A stretch of 64,000 nt of DNA from Tumebacillus lacus. GTDB lineage: Bacteria > Bacillota > Bacilli > Tumebacillales > Tumebacillaceae. Under the pieces are notes generated by a model. The model ran no database searches and had not been told where the DNA came from. It was given only the letters and a program-made list of their open reading frames with translations. Position numbers and translations under genes: made by a program. How positions within the stretch are numbered: the stretch's first letter is position 1; each line of letters begins with the position of its first letter. The stretch lies in NCBI RefSeq assembly GCF_026410385.1, contig NZ_JAPMLT010000001.1, positions 310,001-374,000 on the forward strand, read 5' to 3'. Shown piece after piece: positions 1-55,570 of the stretch.

Positions 1-1958
1 AGTACGAAGGCGCGCTGAAAATGGCGCAGGGGATGGAGGAGATCTTGGGGTCGTTTCTGGCTCAACCGCAGGTGCCGGAGTATGTGTTTTACCACGCGTT
101 GACCCTTTGCGCGCTTTATCCTTGTGCCAAAAAAGGCGAGCAAAAAGGGTACCGGAAAAAACTGAAAAGCCTCCTGCGCCAGTTGAAGAAGTGGTCGGTG
201 AACGGACCAGAGAACTTTTTGCATAAATACTGGCTGATCAGCGCGGAGATCGAACGGATCGAAGGACGAGATCTGACGGCGATGGAACTGTACGATCGGG
301 CGATTGAATCGGCACTGGAGCATGGTTTCATCCAAAACGCCGCCATCGCGCAGGAGTGCGCCGGACGCTACTATCTGAAATGCGGCCGGGAAAAGGTGGC
401 CAAAGCCTATCTGACCGATGCGCTGTATACCTATTTAAAATGGGGGGCGACGGCAAAGGCGAGCGATCTGTCGGAGCAATACGGGCATCTGTTGACCCAC
501 CTGTGGGAGATGGACGCGTCCCGCGCCGAATTGGCGATGACGTCGTCCACGCATCAGACTTCGGAAGGCGGGCGGCAGATCGACCTCGTGACGCTGATGA
601 AAGCATCGCGGGCGATCTCCGGCGAGATCGTGCTGGACAAACTGCTGGAAAATCTGATCAACATCGTCGTGGAAAACGCAGGTGCGCAAAAGGGCGTGCT
701 GTTGGTCAAGCGGGGTCCTGAACTGTTCATCGAAGCGGAGAAAATGGATGGCGAAACGGTCGAAGTGTTGCAATCGGTGCCGCTCAGCAAACGCGGCGAT
801 CTGCCGGTCAGCGTCTTGCAGTATGTGCGACGGATGAAAGAGCAGGTCGTGTTGCACGATGCTTCGGAGAGCGACATCTTTGCCAAGGACGTCTATTTCC
901 GGGACGTGCGGCCCAAGTCGGTGCTGTGCATGCCCTTTCTCAATCAGAGTCGTCTGGTCGGCGTGCTCTATCTGGAGAACAACCTGACCACGGGAGCGTT
1001 TACCGCCGACCGCTTTGAACTGCTCAACCTGCTTTCGACGCAGATCGCAGCGGCGATTGAAAATGCCAAGCTGTATCGGCGTCAAGTGGAGCTGAGCGAG
1101 GCGTACGGCAAATTTGTGCCGCATCAGTTCCTGCAACTGCTCAACAAGCAGAGCATTACCGACATCACGGTCGGCGATCATGTATCGGCGGAGATGACGG
1201 TGTTGTTTTCCGACATCCGCTCCTTTACGACGATGGCGGAAAAGATGACGCCGGAGGAGACGTTCCGTTTTCTCAACGAGTATCTGAGCCGCATGGAGCC
1301 GTGCGTGATCGAAAACCGCGGCTTTATCGACAAGTACGTGGGTGACGGGATCATGTCGCTGTTCGATAAAGGGGCGGACGACGCGCTGCGAGCCGCGATT
1401 GCGATGCAGCATCGGGTGTATGAGTACAATCGCGAACGCGTCGATGCGGGAGAAGAGCCGATTGAGATCGGCATCGGAATCAACACCGGGCGGCTGATGC
1501 TCGGCACGCTGGGCGGTCTGCGCCGGATGGACTCGACGGTCATCTCTGACGCGGTCAATCTCGCCTCGCGGATCGAAGGGCTGACCAAACTGTACGGCGT
1601 GTCGTTGCTGATCGCGGAGGCGACGCTGCGGCGGCTGCAAGATCCGGCCCGGTACTCGATCCGCCTGCTCGACCGCGTGCGCGTGCGGGGCAAGACGGCA
1701 GAGATCGTGCTGTACGAAGTGTTTGATGCCGACCCGGACGACGTGCGCGAGGGCAAGCGACAGACGAAACTGCGCTATGAGACGGCGATCCGGCTGTTCC
1801 AACGGGGCGAGACGGAGGTCGCAAAAGAGATGTTTGCCGACTGTCTCGCCACCGTGCCGAATGACCGCATGGCCCGGATCTGGATGGAGCGTTGTTCGCA
1901 GCCGACAGGGCGCGGTTATGAGGCCAGCCAGACGGTACTGCTCGACGAGGGAGTTTGA
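1..1958 (+). CDS. GAF / class III adenylate cyclase, 5' end outside window
   Basis: The frame is open from the first base of the window, so this is the C-terminal part of a longer protein; residues are counted from the Met at 21. Helical TPR-like sequence comes first, then a GAF sensor (about 195-350) and a class III nucleotidyl cyclase domain (about 385-560). The two metal-binding Asp sit in FSDIRSF (about 396) and YVGDGIM (about 438). The Lys just before the second motif and the Asp of SDAVNLASR form the pair that selects ATP, and the Asn and Arg of that motif are the transition-state residues, so cAMP synthesis is expected. A short helical tail follows. In related proteins kinase and AAA-ATPase modules precede this region; whether that holds here cannot be seen. 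Confidence 0.85.
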   Translation, partial: YEGALKMAQGMEEILGSFLAQPQVPEYVFYHALTLCALYPCAKKGEQKGYRKKLKSLLRQLKKWSVNGPENFLHKYWLISAEIERIEGRDLTAMELYDRAIESALEHGFIQNAAIAQECAGRYYLKCGREKVAKAYLTDALYTYLKWGATAKASDLSEQYGHLLTHLWEMDASRAELAMTSSTHQTSEGGRQIDLVTLMKASRAISGEIVLDKLLENLINIVVENAGAQKGVLLVKRGPELFIEAEKMDGETVEVLQSVPLSKRGDLPVSVLQYVRRMKEQVVLHDASESDIFAKDVYFRDVRPKSVLCMPFLNQSRLVGVLYLENNLTTGAFTADRFELLNLLSTQIAAAIENAKLYRRQVELSEAYGKFVPHQFLQLLNKQSITDITVGDHVSAEMTVLFSDIRSFTTMAEKMTPEETFRFLNEYLSRMEPCVIENRGFIDKYVGDGIMSLFDKGADDALRAAIAMQHRVYEYNRERVDAGEEPIEIGIGINTGRLMLGTLGGLRRMDSTVISDAVNLASRIEGLTKLYGVSLLIAEATLRRLQDPARYSIRLLDRVRVRGKTAEIVLYEVFDADPDDVREGKRQTKLRYETAIRLFQRGETEVAKEMFADCLATVPNDRMARIWMERCSQPTGRGYEASQTVLLDEGV

Positions 1959-18429: not shown

Positions 18430-20013
18430 ATGTTTGAAAAACCGTTTGATCTGCTCAACAAGGCGGTCGACCGGATCGAGACGCAACTGACGGAGGCGGA
18501 CACCGACCAGCGGCACATTCTCGGCGAAGAGTTGATCGCACTGCGCAACGCCTGCGACAAATTTGTCGAGCAATGGCTGTCGTTTGAGGAGCGGGTCACG
18601 GAGCTTGGCGAGCGTTATCAGCTCGACCTCGACGGCTCGCTGCCGACGCCGGAGTTGCAGGATCTGCAGAACAAGCTGGCGGCGTTGCAGAGCCTGAACA
18701 TTTTCCCGCAGGAGCCGAAAGCGAAGAAAGCGGTCAAACCGGCGGAGACCGATTCGCAGGAGGCGGCGAAAGGCGCACCCACGGGCAAAAGCAAAGGCAA
18801 AAACCCGCCGGGCGTGTTTACCTGGCAGGTCGGCGACGGGATGACGATGCGCCCGAGCGACGAGCACATGGTGCGGTCGTTCCGGCGGGCGATCGGCTAC
18901 TTCGACCTGCTGATGTATCCGGAGGCGATCAACGAGTTTAAACGGGTGGTGGAGATCGACGGCGAGTTCCTGATCGCGCGTCTGTATCTGGCGTTCGGCT
19001 ATCTGGCGCAGGGAAATCTGGAAGAGGCCGACCATCAGTTGAACATGATCCAAGCGGATGAAGAGGATGAATTTTTGCAGGCGACGGTGCACGCCACCTA
19101 CGGGCACATCTACGCGGAGCAGGAAAAATATGAACAGGCGCTCGTCGATTTTGAAGCGGCGGCGCAGTTGGTGCCCAATTTTAAAGATGTCAACTACAAC
19201 ATCGCCTGCTGCCATTTCAACCTCGGCAATCTGCGCGAGGCGCTGACTCATTTTCAGCGGGCGTTGGTGCTCGATCACGAAGACTGGGAGTCACACCGTC
19301 TCTGCGGCCTGATCTGGGAGCAGCTCGGTCACCGCGAGCGGGCCTACCGCCATCTGGCGCGCTCGTACGACGTGAACGGGGCCCATGAGCAGGTGCTGCT
19401 CGACTTTGCCCGGCTGTCGGAACTGATGGGCGAGAAAGATCAGGCGCGGGCGCTGTATAAGAAGGCGTTGCGCTACTATCCGGGCTCGGGTCCGGCGTAC
19501 GGGGGCCTTGGCTGGCTGGCGATGCGGGACGGCGATGTGGACGGAGCGTATGCGTTGTTTAAAAAGCAGGTGTCGTGCGACCCGACAAATCGACAAGGGA
19601 CGTTTAACATCGGCTGGGCGGCGTATCAGTCCAAGCAATACCAGACGGCGGAGTCGTGTTTCAACAAACTGCTGACCAAAAACAAGCGCGACGCGCACGC
19701 GCTGGCAGGACTCGCCCGCACGTGGAGTCAGATGGGCAAGCGGGAGGCGGCCAAGGAGCAACTGTTGCAACTGGTGGCGATGGAAGGCAACGCGGAGAAA
19801 AAGCTCGGCCTGTATCATCTCGGGCGGCTGGCTTTGGAGGAGGAGACCTACACGCAGGCGTTGCGCTATTTCAACGCGGCGTTGGTGTACGACCGCGACT
19901 GTCTGGAATCGCTGTTCTACAAAGGGATCGCGCATTACGCGCTCGGCGAGCGGGAGCGGGCGCAGCAGTGCTTTGAACGGTGCAAAGTGGTGCGTGCGGA
20001 GATGACGGTGTAG
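18430..20013 (+). CDS. tetratricopeptide-repeat protein
   Basis: A protein of 527 residues. The first 130 are charged and helical with a low-complexity Lys/Ala linker; from about residue 145 the sequence is a series of TPR units (for example YPEAINEFKRVVEIDGEFLI, YEQALVDFEAAAQLVPNFKD, LREALTHFQRALVLDHEDWE, YTQALRYFNAALVYDRDCLE). There is no signal peptide. TPR arrays mediate protein contacts, so a scaffold or regulator role is likely but no partner is indicated. It lies between panD and dinG; the ribosome binding site is G-rich rather than a clear AGGAGG. Confidence 0.85.
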   Translation: MFEKPFDLLNKAVDRIETQLTEADTDQRHILGEELIALRNACDKFVEQWLSFEERVTELGERYQLDLDGSLPTPELQDLQNKLAALQSLNIFPQEPKAKKAVKPAETDSQEAAKGAPTGKSKGKNPPGVFTWQVGDGMTMRPSDEHMVRSFRRAIGYFDLLMYPEAINEFKRVVEIDGEFLIARLYLAFGYLAQGNLEEADHQLNMIQADEEDEFLQATVHATYGHIYAEQEKYEQALVDFEAAAQLVPNFKDVNYNIACCHFNLGNLREALTHFQRALVLDHEDWESHRLCGLIWEQLGHRERAYRHLARSYDVNGAHEQVLLDFARLSELMGEKDQARALYKKALRYYPGSGPAYGGLGWLAMRDGDVDGAYALFKKQVSCDPTNRQGTFNIGWAAYQSKQYQTAESCFNKLLTKNKRDAHALAGLARTWSQMGKREAAKEQLLQLVAMEGNAEKKLGLYHLGRLALEEETYTQALRYFNAALVYDRDCLESLFYKGIAHYALGERERAQQCFERCKVVRAEMTV

Positions 20014-25075: not shown

Positions 25076-25155
25076 AAGGCGACGGGACAGGAATTCCAAC
25101 GCTTGCGGCGAAGTAAAATGTTAGGGAGGACTCGTCTCGCAAGGGGAGGGATACT

Positions 25156-52186: not shown

Positions 52187-53017
52187 TTGAAAACCATACA
52201 GTTGCGTATTCTTACGCGGATCGTTTGTTGCGTGGTAATGGCTGCTACCTATTGGAAGTTCACCCAAGTTATGTTTTCTGAAACCGATCGACTCTTTTAT
52301 TCCATAGGTTATCCGTTGCTTCTGCTCCTGCCGGCCTTCTTGATTGGTGCTGCGTTGGAACGCTTTATCTTGCAACGCAGAAAACCTTGGGGTCTCGTGA
52401 GTGCTAGCCTGCTGTTTCTCTTCTTCTCGCTTGGCAACATCCTGAATGCCGATGTGGAAACGGTCTCGTACTCCAGACCCGTCCCCATCTTACCTCAAGA
52501 GGTTTCGGCTTTCCTTCAAGATATGAAAGAAGACCTAGATGGCATCCACGGACGCTTTCAAGCGGACGCCTCTTCCGTAGAAGGGTTGTTAGACCCGGAT
52601 GCACTGACCAACCCGATGATATTTGATGAAGTACGGGAACTGTTTCCAGCTTTGAAGGTTTCCCTCAATTTGTATGACAGCGAGATACATCGTCATTATA
52701 ATGTCACCTTGTCCGAGAAGTCTGAAGCACTCGATCTCGATCCAAAGTTGCAAAAAGAGATGTGGTTATTTGTACAGCATGCTCGTCTTGACGTGTTGCC
52801 GATGGAGGAGCAATTTATCGAACTCCAGCATCAGGAGTTAGCTTTGTTGGAGGAATACTTCGTCTTTATGGAAGATCGATTGGGTCAGTTCACTGTGGTG
52901 GACGGAGAGGTGATATTCGAGAACCCCGCCGACCATGCCAAGTATGAGTCCTTCATCGACCGCTCGGAACAGCTGCTGACCGATGAAAGTGAATTGTTCG
53001 AGGATTCCGGAGAATAA
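52187..53017 (+). CDS. hypothetical membrane protein
   Basis: A protein of 276 residues with about three N-terminal membrane helices (IVCCVVMAATYWKF, GYPLLLLLPAFLIGAALERF, GLVSASLLFLFFSLGNI) and an acidic helical domain of about 190 residues (MKEDLDGIHGRFQADASSVE and so on). No family is recognised. The TTG start has GGGAG about 13 bases before it. It precedes the ECF sigma pair but is separated from it by a terminator. Confidence 0.65.
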   Translation: MKTIQLRILTRIVCCVVMAATYWKFTQVMFSETDRLFYSIGYPLLLLLPAFLIGAALERFILQRRKPWGLVSASLLFLFFSLGNILNADVETVSYSRPVPILPQEVSAFLQDMKEDLDGIHGRFQADASSVEGLLDPDALTNPMIFDEVRELFPALKVSLNLYDSEIHRHYNVTLSEKSEALDLDPKLQKEMWLFVQHARLDVLPMEEQFIELQHQELALLEEYFVFMEDRLGQFTVVDGEVIFENPADHAKYESFIDRSEQLLTDESELFEDSGE

Positions 53018-53035
53018 AATCTTTCGAGTCCTTCG

Positions 53036-53063
53036 AGACGCGTCAATTGGCGCGTCTTTTTTG
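53036..53063 (+). terminator. terminator before the ECF sigma gene
   Basis: AGACGCG/CGCGTCT stem with an 8-base loop and TTTTTT. Confidence 0.85.
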
Positions 53064-53090
53064 TGGATAGATGTTTCGTACAGAAAAAAG

Positions 53091-53117
53091 GGAACCTTTT
53101 TCACTCCCGGTTGTTCT
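53091..53117 (+). promoter_or_regulatory. possible ECF-type promoter
   Basis: GGAACCTTTTT resembles the GGAAC/GAAAC -35 of ECF sigma factors, and GTTC follows about 17 bases later. It would fit autoregulation of the sigma gene at 53151. Confidence 0.35.
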
Positions 53118-53150
53118 AATCAGTACCAACCAACAAAGGAGGTACATCAC

Positions 53151-53678
53151 GTGCCGCAAGAAGCGCTCGTCCGGTCGGCTCAACGAGGCGACAAGGACGC
53201 ATTCGTCCGCTTGGTCAAAGATGCGGAACTCACGATGTACCGCATCGCCAAGTCGATGGTCAAGACAGACGAAGCCTGTGCGGACGCTTTGCAGGAGACG
53301 ATTCTGAAAGCGTACGGTTCGCTTCGCTCTGTCAAGGAGCCGCGATATTTCAAGACCTGGCTGGTCCGCATCCTGATCAATGTCTGCAACCAGATGCTCC
53401 GCACGAACCGCCAAGTCGTCCTGATCGAAGAATGGATGGACACGCCTGCTGCTTCCACCTCGTCCTACGACAAGGTGGAGATCCAGGAAGCGGTCGATTC
53501 GCTGGAAGACGATCATCGGGTGATCGTCACGCTGTATTATTTTCATGACCTGAGCATCAAAGAGATCGCGCAGTCGCTGGACATTCGCGAAGGAACGGTG
53601 AAGTCGAGGCTGAACCGGGCGAGGGGCAAGCTCGCGAGATTCTTTGGGGTGAATCAACGAGAGGAGGGACTATCATGA
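53151..53678 (+). CDS. ECF-type RNA polymerase sigma factor
   Basis: A protein of 175 residues with region 2 (AFVRLVKDAELTMYRIAKSM, ADALQETILKAYGSLRSVKE, YFKTWLVRILINVCNQML) and region 4 (VIVTLYYFHDLSIKEIAQSL, REGTVKSRLNRARGKL). It would redirect RNA polymerase on a cell-envelope or stress signal. The GTG start is fixed by AAAGGAGG eight bases upstream. Its stop overlaps the next gene (ATGA), the usual arrangement for a sigma factor and its antagonist. Confidence 0.93.
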   Translation: MPQEALVRSAQRGDKDAFVRLVKDAELTMYRIAKSMVKTDEACADALQETILKAYGSLRSVKEPRYFKTWLVRILINVCNQMLRTNRQVVLIEEWMDTPAASTSSYDKVEIQEAVDSLEDDHRVIVTLYYFHDLSIKEIAQSLDIREGTVKSRLNRARGKLARFFGVNQREEGLS

Positions 53679-54682
53679 AAAATACGACGGTAACGGAGCA
53701 AGAACTCCCGGAGATCGTCCGCCATCGAATCGACGAGACGCTCGCGTCTCTGCCTGCTAGCAGACGCAGCGTGAACCCATCGCGTCTGCGCAATCGAATG
53801 GTGCTCTCCGCCGTCCTCGCGTCTTCGGTCGCCTGCTTGATGGTCGTCGGCTTTACAGTGCCGAGTTTCGCTGAAGTGTTGCGGGAAGCCCCGGTGATCG
53901 GGTCGGTGTTCAAACGGGTCGGCGACGCGCCTTTGCAGTCCGCTCATGAAAAGGGAATTGTCACGGAGATCAACCAGAGCGCGACCGACCAAGGATATGA
54001 AGTTAACATCACGGAGGTGCTCTTCGACGGTTCGCAACTGTCGATCGGCTATGTGCTCTCCTCCGACAAAGTGCTGCCGGAGCAGACCAATCCGCACACC
54101 TATATTGAAATCAATGGCGAGCGCCTTGGCACGTACGGCTCCAGCGGTACAGGAGACAGGATCGACGCTTACTCGTATGCCGGACTCGTGTATGTGTTCC
54201 CGGCTGCGACGCTGCCCGAGAGCTTCGACTTCGGACTGACTTTCCGCCAGTTCGGGGACATCAAGGGGAAGTGGGCCTTCACTTTTCCTGTCAAGAAACA
54301 GACCGCGGGCAACAAGGTCATCATGCCGATGCAGGCAAAAACGTACGGCGACACCACGATCTTGATCGAAAAGGTCTCGTTCGCCGCTACGGCTACTGAG
54401 ATCGTCGGGCGGACCATCCAGCCGAGCGCAAAGGGCGAGGCGGGTCTGGCGGGCCTCATGGAGTTTGAAGTCGTGGACGACAAAGGGAATCGTCTCGAAC
54501 AGATCAGCCGCACAGGGAACGGTGACTGGTTCAAAGGCCTGTTCGAATCTGTGACAGACTTGCCGCAATCAATCACGATACGGCCCGTTCGCCGACATCA
54601 AACACAGTTCGATGCCGCGACGATAAAAGGGTTGGAGATCACGATACCCGTTGAACAGACAGAAAAACTGTGGCGCAAATAG
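53675..54682 (+). CDS. transmembrane anti-sigma-like protein (DUF4179 type)
   Basis: A protein of 335 residues with a short cytoplasmic N-terminus (about 1-45), one membrane helix (VLSAVLASSVACLMVVGFTV) and an outer DUF4179-like part (FAEVLREAPVIGSVFKRVGD, VNITEVLFDGSQLSIGYVL). Proteins of this type sit next to ECF sigma genes and sequester the sigma factor until a signal outside the cell. The start overlaps the sigma stop codon by 4 bases. The cytoplasmic part is short and lacks a zinc motif. Confidence 0.85.
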   Translation: MKNTTVTEQELPEIVRHRIDETLASLPASRRSVNPSRLRNRMVLSAVLASSVACLMVVGFTVPSFAEVLREAPVIGSVFKRVGDAPLQSAHEKGIVTEINQSATDQGYEVNITEVLFDGSQLSIGYVLSSDKVLPEQTNPHTYIEINGERLGTYGSSGTGDRIDAYSYAGLVYVFPAATLPESFDFGLTFRQFGDIKGKWAFTFPVKKQTAGNKVIMPMQAKTYGDTTILIEKVSFAATATEIVGRTIQPSAKGEAGLAGLMEFEVVDDKGNRLEQISRTGNGDWFKGLFESVTDLPQSITIRPVRRHQTQFDAATIKGLEITIPVEQTEKLWRK

Positions 54683-54804
54683 AGAAAAAAAGCAGAGACC
54701 TAGGGAGGGGTCTCTGCCAAAGAAGGGTATGGGGTACAAACAAAGCGTGAGATTCACAAAAGGGTTAGTTCGATGCGTCTCGTCTCCCTGGGGGAGGGAG
54801 CGAT
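54683..54804 (-). ncRNA. candidate C-rich small regulatory RNA
   Basis: On the minus strand a good promoter (54811-54839) is followed after about 85 bases by the stem GCAGAGACC/GGTCTCTGC and seven T, giving a transcript of about 120 bases. It is C-rich with repeated CCC runs (CTCCCTCCCCC, AACCCTTTTG, TACCCCATACCC), and the terminator loop is CCTCCCTA. C-rich loops complementary to ribosome binding sites are typical of trans-acting sRNAs in Gram-positive bacteria such as the RsaE/RoxS family. No protein frame fits. Assignment to a family is not possible here. Confidence 0.5.
54685..54717 (-). terminator. minus-strand terminator of the candidate sRNA
   Basis: A perfect 9-bp stem with an 8-base loop and a seven-T tail on the minus strand; on the plus strand no T-run follows. 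Confidence 0.8.
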
Positions 54805-54810
54805 AATTTA

Positions 54811-54839
54811 AGTATAGTGTACAGCTTTGCAACGTTAAA
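54811..54839 (-). promoter_or_regulatory. promoter of the candidate sRNA
   Basis: On the minus strand TTTAAC and TATACT are spaced by 17 bases. Confidence 0.55.
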
Positions 54840-54953
54840 GCGGGAAGTGCAGGGGGATGTGGTATTGTCATTGATTGAAACAGTCGGTAGGGAGAGTACA
54901 AGGCAGTGACTGCTTTAGCCTTTGCCTATTGATACCTGCTCGAACCGCCTACG

Positions 54954-54998
54954 AAAGAGCGATGCCGCACCCCACCTACGTGCACATCGCTCTTTTTT
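54954..54998 (+). terminator. terminator in the intergenic region before the YjcZ-like genes
   Basis: AAAGAGCGATG pairs with CATCGCTCTTT, with an inner GCAC/GTGC stem and six T. No protein gene lies just upstream on this strand; a GCAG-TGA-CTGC hairpin at 54903-54913 precedes it, so a second short RNA starting around 54890 is possible. The rest of 54840-55143 shows nothing else that I can support. Confidence 0.8.
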
Positions 54999-55060
54999 CC
55001 TGTCCCCGAAAATGGGCAGGCCCCAGTAGGCCATCGCCTTTCCACTGCTGGCGGACGGGA

Positions 55061-55069
55061 CATAGAGTA
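55061..55069 (+). promoter_or_regulatory. SigK-like -10 box before the YjcZ-like genes
   Basis: CATAGAGTA fits the CATA-N3-TA form of late mother-cell promoters; a matching AC in the -35 region is one or two bases off the usual spacing. It would suit sporulation expression. Confidence 0.3.
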
Positions 55070-55143
55070 TAACAAAACCAAGCAACACACCAAGTCGCAA
55101 CGACGCTATCGACGCGAAACCACACTGAGAGGAGGAATGAACC

Positions 55144-55263
55144 ATGTACGGTACTTTTGGTCCCTACACCCAATGGGTCGTCGTGTTTCTGATCATCTTC
55201 GTCTTGTTCTTCCTGTTGGTGCCTGGTCTGGGCGGCTACGGTGAAGGTCACTCTGTTCGCTGA
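55144..55263 (+). CDS. YjcZ-like small sporulation/membrane protein, copy 1
   Basis: A 39-residue protein starting MYGTFGPYTQW with one membrane helix (VVVFLIIFVLFFLLV) and a Gly-rich tail. AGGAGG precedes the ATG. It is the first of three tandem related genes. The Gly/Tyr-rich start and single helix are like YjcZ sporulation peptides; the precise family is inferred. Confidence 0.75.
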   Translation: MYGTFGPYTQWVVVFLIIFVLFFLLVPGLGGYGEGHSVR

Positions 55264-55297
55264 CGAAAACAAAAAAATACGAAAAGGGGTATGTGAA

Positions 55298-55402
55298 ATG
55301 TACGGTGTATTCGGTGCTTACACGCAATGGGCGGTTGTGTTCTTGATCATCTTCGTGCTGTTCTTCCTGCTCGTCCCGGGCCTCGCTGGCTACGGCGCGT
55401 AA
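55298..55402 (+). CDS. YjcZ-like small sporulation/membrane protein, copy 2
   Basis: A 34-residue protein starting MYGVFGAYTQW, with the same helix as its neighbour and a shorter tail ending AGYGA. GAAAAGGGG lies before the ATG, and the gene is 34 bases from copy 1. Confidence 0.75.
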   Translation: MYGVFGAYTQWAVVFLIIFVLFFLLVPGLAGYGA

Positions 55403-55447
55403 GGGAAACGGCAAACTCGCAAAATTCTGAGAGAGGGGGATGGTTTC

Positions 55448-55570
55448 ATGTACGGTGTATTCGGACCTTACACGCAATGGGCGGTTGTATTCCTGATCAT
55501 CTTCGTGCTGTTCCTGCTCCTCGCAGGAACCGGCTACGCAGCTCCGGTTCAAGGCAAATGCGGCTGCTAA
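55448..55570 (+). CDS. YjcZ-like small sporulation/membrane protein, copy 3
   Basis: A 40-residue protein starting MYGVFGPYTQW with the same hydrophobic helix, but a diverged tail ending in CGC, where two Cys could be cross-linked or bind metal. GAGAGGGGG lies before the ATG. It is followed by a strong terminator. Confidence 0.75.
   Translation: MYGVFGPYTQWAVVFLIIFVLFLLLAGTGYAAPVQGKCGC

Follow-up and report, generated by a model that had tools for sequence, protein, structure and literature searches.

Does the minus strand behind an anti-sigma-like gene of Tumebacillus lacus, a spore-forming bacterium of soil, encode a small RNA (sRNA), and if so, of what kind? The question concerns a short spacer within a stretch of 64,000 nucleotides, here called the window. 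We lean, with modest confidence, towards a lineage-specific gene for a C-rich, trans-acting RNA that would block Shine-Dalgarno sequences; transcription, base pairing, repression and targets of this candidate are predictions from the sequence.

Terminator, promoter and fold of the candidate sRNA

The locus and its neighbours comprise the following features.

54684..54804, minus strand: candidate sRNA of about 121 nt, based on terminator, fold, terminator survey and a match to covariance model R2 (see below)
54811..54838, minus strand: promoter-like site TTAACG-16-TATACT, 9 of 12 matches
near 54804, minus strand: expected transcription start, placed by the promoter-like site
54784..54800, minus strand: 5' hairpin CUCCCU-CCCCC-AGGGAG of the minimum free energy fold, its loop being C-rich site 1
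54758..54765, minus strand: ACCCUUUU motif, an 8-mer common to the mnmA-side RNAs of two Tumebacillus genomes
54723..54740, minus strand: single-stranded stretch UUUGUACCCCAUACCCUU, C-rich site 2, from sequence and predicted fold
54684..54718, minus strand: intrinsic terminator GGCAGAGACC-CCUCCCUA-GGUCUCUGCU-U tract, its loop being C-rich site 3
53675..54682, plus strand: anti-sigma-like gene (DUF4179, DUF5643), the convergent neighbour
52983..53678, plus strand: ECF sigma factor gene upstream of the anti-sigma gene, with its true start inside this frame

The terminator is clear. Ten perfect pairs (54718-54691, minus strand) enclose the loop CCTCCCTA, and the T run extends to 54685. The T tract is confined to the minus strand; read on the plus strand, the hairpin runs into CAAAGAAG, and with no T tract behind it there it is therefore not a plus-strand intrinsic terminator. 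The minus-strand terminator of the original prediction is thus confirmed. The promoter, predicted with a spacing of 17 bp, fared less well, as the best -35 element gives a spacing of 16, and the site is weak and no better than chance, with one site of 9/12 quality found against 0.8 expected from shuffles of the 2-kb region. The predicted transcript folds at -33.2 kcal/mol (z -3.8 to -4.05; 0/200 shuffles as stable) into the 5' hairpin, a weak middle hairpin, the single-stranded UUUGUUUGUACCCCAUACCCUUCUUUG and the terminator, in this order. Inspection by eye of the transcript revealed no reading frame with a ribosome binding site. Of the originally proposed unit, the terminator is clear and the promoter stays at chance level. 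The best reading remains a C-rich sRNA gene, and likely kin of it occur in the genus.

The description of the body as C-rich holds for its C runs rather than for its composition. The 123 nt contain 42 C and 21 G, a C excess that is common, being matched by 300/6388 minus-strand and 68/6388 plus-strand segments of the same length in the 64 kb. However, 11 CCC starts per 123 nt are reached by only 15 of 12,776 segments on both strands, taken in 10-nt steps, and some of these 15 overlap the candidate locus itself. Moreover, 167 strong terminators were collected from 464 kb of the genome (the 64-kb window and 20 stretches of 20 kb): 13 are preceded by at least three CCC starts within 60 nt of the stem, five carry at least five C in the loop, and the candidate alone combines both marks. 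By the summed score two terminators, located in L155 and L167, exceed it; the latter, ranked just above the candidate, belongs to the independently conserved metK RNA described below. By predicted fold, C-run counts and terminator survey, unpaired C-rich motifs are present in the candidate sRNA.

Locus L155 of the same genome also contains, at 18960-19070 on the plus strand (G000:C1 near 259 kb), three stable hairpins, two of them with C-rich loops (UCUCCCCAA and CCCCCA), followed by a T run. This element is a further C-rich sRNA candidate of this genome, though perhaps a 3' UTR.

The candidate ends 2 nt from the stop codon of the convergent anti-sigma gene, and the earlier assertion that its terminator has no other explanation was too strong. 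A cis-antisense RNA could pair with the 3' UTR of the sigma/anti-sigma transcript or read into the anti-sigma gene and so tune the operon. The plus strand contains no terminator between the anti-sigma stop codon and the sRNA, and the operon transcript may cross the sRNA, perhaps as far as a hairpin with a T run near 54950-54996. However, antisense action does not need C-rich loops, and the kin of three congeners, described below, sit at tatD without such an operon; we consider this explanation quite unlikely. An attenuator of a downstream gene was rejected at this locus, where the downstream gene is convergent.

The anti-sigma protein had no relative in six other genomes of the family and none among 42 pattern-matching stretches of GTDB contigs, and the sigma/anti-sigma pair appears to be lineage-specific. 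Likewise, no orthologue of the candidate sRNA was found at the same place, the anti-sigma gene being without a match in the six family genomes and, by pattern, in the GTDB contigs. At its own locus, the candidate sRNA is restricted to this species or close relatives.

Candidate kin beside tatD and mnmA

Four Tumebacillus genomes (the window's own, G000, and G001, G002 and G003) were compared with 10 others of the order. The stem pattern GCAGAGAC-N5..10-GTCTCTGC has a single occurrence in every one of the four Tumebacillus genomes, and one of the 10 others also contains it. In the three congeners, G001 to G003, the pattern stands at the end of a conserved element, ACGACCUUUUUUUACCCUACACCUAUUUAUGUUGGCAGAGAC-loop-GUCUCUGC-U run, located about 50 nt upstream of a member of the tatD family; we take this gene to be tatD from its sequence rather than from a family search.

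L051, L052 and L053, about 1499-1565, minus strand: tatD-side C-rich elements with terminator

The element, on the same strand as tatD and about 50 nt before it, may be an sRNA or an attenuator. The candidate sRNA does not share the position 5' of tatD; in the window's genome tatD sits elsewhere, and its locus lacks the element. The candidate sRNA reads UACCCCAUACCC where the tatD-side RNAs read UACCCUACACCU, and the three differences, all C/U and in register, would be tolerated by a G-rich partner. Conservation of the C-rich loops in relatives is partial: all three Tumebacillus kin retain the single-stranded UACCC motif, whereas a C-rich terminator loop is seen in one of them alone.

The covariance model R2, built from the tatD-side elements of the three congeners with the window sequence left out, returned the candidate locus at 33 bits (E 0.0018) as its only match at E <= 0.1 in the window's genome and aligned over the whole length of the candidate sRNA. 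This match is good but not overwhelming, because the model also gave weak matches in other genomes (E 0.013 in G005, 0.031 in G003 and 0.068 in G012). Much of the candidate's score with R2, and with the model R3 introduced below, comes from the terminator stem; outside the stem, its similarity to the tatD-side RNAs is no better than that of shuffled sequences, of which 830 to 1678 in 5000 do as well. A further model, R1, which combines the tatD-side elements with the window sequence, was run on 398 genomes of the class and matched 17 of the 394 outside the genus at E <= 0.05. This number equals chance, and the tatD-side type therefore seems confined to Tumebacillus as far as sampled.

G001 and G003 contain a second tiny C-rich RNA candidate, GUACCAACUAUCACCCUUUUACCCCAUU-hairpin with the loop CCCCCC, beside a gene that is presumably mnmA.

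L065:1502-1557 and L067:1495-1549, plus strand: mnmA-side candidate RNAs

Model R3 was built from these two RNAs and a similar element in G009. It scored the candidate sRNA at 24 bits (E 4e-05 in 85 kb); in searches over whole genomes, the window locus was not returned at E <= 1. Outside the stem, the candidate resembles the mnmA-side RNAs weakly better than shuffled sequences do (479 and 511 of 5000 as good), and it shares with them two 8-mers in the same order, which 43 of 20,000 shuffles equalled. These observations, namely the terminator stem and short shared words, point to the candidate as a likely sibling of the RNAs beside tatD and mnmA, and the genus probably has a set of C-rich RNAs of which it is a member.

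The prediction of an sRNA gene has to be weighed here against a chance terminator, an unused hairpin with a T run in a C-rich spacer that has neither promoter nor function. A promoter at chance level and the lack of an orthologue in place are compatible with this view, strong terminators are frequent (the 167 in 464 kb), and runs of C are not unusual at a G+C content of 55%. Yet the candidate is the sole one of these terminators with both C-rich marks, R2 matches the locus, and no other minus-strand gene here requires a terminator. Taken together, we hold a chance terminator to be unlikely and retain the sRNA gene as the preferred reading.

As a separate observation, a C-rich stretch at L066:1501-1580 on the minus strand (G010) precedes a MarR-like gene and lies 2.8 kb from a metK RNA. 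It has the 16 nt TTTGTACCCCATACCC in common with the candidate sRNA (8/5000 shuffles), a likeness that is post hoc, having been found by a model containing the window sequence.

A conserved C-rich RNA near metK

Searches with R3 also gave matches in other genera, namely G004, G005 and G006 (E 7e-7 to 8e-7) and G012 (2e-5), with weaker ones in G010 (1e-4), G011 (5e-4) and G007 (8e-4); G008 and G013 gave none at E <= 1. Common to the matches of other genera is the core UAUCACCCUUACCCCAUU, with a GC-rich hairpin behind it. We assume the flanking gene to be metK, and we refer to the element as metK RNA. It consists of the core CACCCUUACCCCAUU and a covarying terminator and is present in all four Tumebacillus genomes, including that of the window, as well as in relatives from other families.

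L172:2881-2935 (G000:C12 near 335.4 kb), minus strand: metK RNA of the window's genome
L169, L170, L171, L118-L125, L137 and L138: metK RNA elsewhere

Among 10 loci checked outside the genus, metK lies within the 1.5-kb flank in six (L118, L122, L124, L125, L137 and L138), and a homologue of one response regulator follows in nine, the exception being L118. The four Tumebacillus members, which emerged from the terminator survey and from inspection of the 1.6-1.7 kb beyond metK, have the core ACCCUUACCCCAUUGC and carry ACCCA in their terminator loops. Across an alignment of 11 sequences, 97.2% of the cells of the terminator helix pair and 13 cells are changed on both sides; none of 500 shuffles reached this pairing, which collapses when the helix is slid. 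The alignment A8 left out L120, near-identical to L119 and L121; L118 (G009) and the mnmA-side RNAs are part of alignment A7 and not of A8, and neither alignment includes L134 and L137, both of which have the core. The A8 ranges for G000 and G002 end short of the upstream ACCCCC motif, which is present in both.

When the class was searched with R3 under stricter filters, which missed G010 and G011, 11 of 384 genomes outside the order matched at E <= 0.02, about the number expected by chance. Three of these matches, all from family f11 (G042, G288 and G386), share the core, and two of the three adjoin metK. Rfam 15 gave no match to mnmA- or metK-type elements in the loci tested. A survey of open-licence papers found none on a small RNA of Tumebacillus or on a metK sRNA of Alicyclobacillus and, among the matches listed, none on a C-rich RNA of this kind in Alicyclobacillus. 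The metK RNA is apparently undescribed, and it is better supported than the window sRNA. It combines an invariant core with a covarying hairpin, and Tumebacillus strains are culturable. The window sRNA itself was rejected as a metK RNA, as the genome has a separate one and the window RNA carries ACCCCAU and ACCCUU in the opposite order.

In the same loci Rfam does find c-di-GMP riboswitches. Those of the c-di-GMP-I type scored above the Rfam cut-off at L172:234-329 (minus strand), at L155:17447-17537 (plus strand) and in L169, L170 and L171.

Putative targets and comparison with known C-rich sRNAs

How would such an RNA act? In the proposed mechanism, a C-rich trans-acting sRNA of about 121 nt, transcribed from the minus strand, would pair through three C-rich sites, the CCCCC loop, the single-stranded ACCC-rich stretch and the loop CCUCCCUA, with G-rich Shine-Dalgarno regions, and pairing there would block translation. 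The part of the RNA preceding the terminator pairs with 306 start regions at a mean of -11.80 kcal/mol, compared with -10.91 (sd 0.17) for 60 shuffled start-region sets. The mean is better than with shuffled start regions, but no single target goes beyond shuffles by energy.

25131..25151, plus strand: rex leader and Shine-Dalgarno sequence, a possible target (lead only), complementary to the 5' part of the sRNA at 18 of 21 positions

The rex start region, in whose duplex with the sRNA CUCGUCUC-GCAA-GGGGAGGGA faces UCCCUCCCC-CAGG-GAGACGAG, ranks first of the 306 by duplex energy; 59 of 60 shuffled RNAs nevertheless find a stronger partner somewhere. An ungapped 18/21 complementarity with any of the 306 start regions arose for 6/1000 and 13/1000 shuffled RNAs, the length of 21 nt having been chosen after the duplex was seen. 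At 20, 22 and 24 nt the complementarity was equalled in 31 to 35 of 1000 shuffles, and at 9, 12, 15, 18, 26 and 30 nt it was not significant. When the cost of opening the 5' hairpin is included, rex drops out of the top eight, and the first place goes to a gene in L149 that looks ECF-sigma-like by eye, a result equalled in 11/60 shuffled sets. We treat rex as a lead among putative targets.

The presence of rex in the window bears on the suggestion that the RNA resembles RsaE/RoxS and is linked to Rex. The C-rich regions of RsaE/RoxS (RF01820) are able to pair with Shine-Dalgarno sequences, according to an extract of the source (PMC4409812), and B. subtilis RoxS is repressed by Rex through a site downstream of the promoter that is said to be conserved, as an excerpt of a second report has it (PMC5419742). 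If the RNA were a divergent RsaE/RoxS controlled by Rex and ResD, this would account for the C-rich single-stranded sites, for rex in the window and for the 18/21 complementarity of its start region to the RNA. However, Rfam at gathering scores gave no match in the window, RsaE none in 54600-55100 at E up to 10, and RF01820 none in the window's genome at E up to 1 and none above the cut-off in 14 genomes of the order; as a control, the model, with its cut-off of 79 bits, passed in one of 14 well-known genomes. Nor was a Rex operator found near the candidate promoter with up to three mismatches; the five 3-mismatch sites in the window (2.44 expected) all lie away from it. Membership in RsaE/RoxS was rejected on these grounds, a divergent member being exceedingly improbable. 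The window RNA and RsaE/RoxS are alike in their C-rich regions, as far as the excerpts describe the latter, but the former fails the covariance model and lacks a Rex site.

The layout is that of LhrC1-5 of Listeria monocytogenes, for which an extract of the report (PMC4132741) gives three redundant CU-rich (UCCC) sites that can bind the lapB Shine-Dalgarno region and lie in a stem-loop, a single-stranded stretch and the terminator loop. In the window RNA the three sites are likewise spread over two loops and a single-stranded stretch; unlike LhrC, this RNA occurs in one copy in its genome, and no sequence kinship was found, Rfam giving no match. sX13 of Xanthomonas (RF02232) has stable stems with apical C-rich loops and represses mRNAs with G-rich motifs independently of Hfq, as stated in the portion of the paper used here (PMC3771888). 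The stems with C-rich loops are alike, but the window RNA is no member, since the terminator hairpin alone scored a sub-threshold 17 bits (cut-off 50, E 0.71), and sX13 comes from another phylum. Finally, C-rich motifs of FsrA of B. subtilis and IsrR of Staphylococcus bind Shine-Dalgarno sequences, according to a passage of the source (PMC9410917); these motifs are similar, whereas FsrA and IsrR are under Fur and no Fur site was evident by eye at the window locus. C-rich sRNAs are known from Bacillus, Listeria and Staphylococcus, and the candidate would extend the kind to a barely studied order.

A broader scheme is conceivable but doubtful: the spore-formers of the order may carry an undescribed set of C-rich RNAs, with the metK RNA as the old member and lineage-specific siblings at tatD, at mnmA and in the window, which share ACCC words and similar terminators and would act as parallel blockers of ribosome binding sites, here with rex among the targets. 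Such a set would give a clean example of sRNA turnover, with one conserved member and several relocated siblings.

In the window, at 55145-55570 on the plus strand, three tandem genes encode tiny, near-identical membrane proteins (MYG..G.YTQW.VVFLIIFVLF), which we assume to be YjcZ-like. Ahead of the start of the second gene is AAAAGGGGTATG, a possible pairing partner for CAUACCC of the candidate sRNA.
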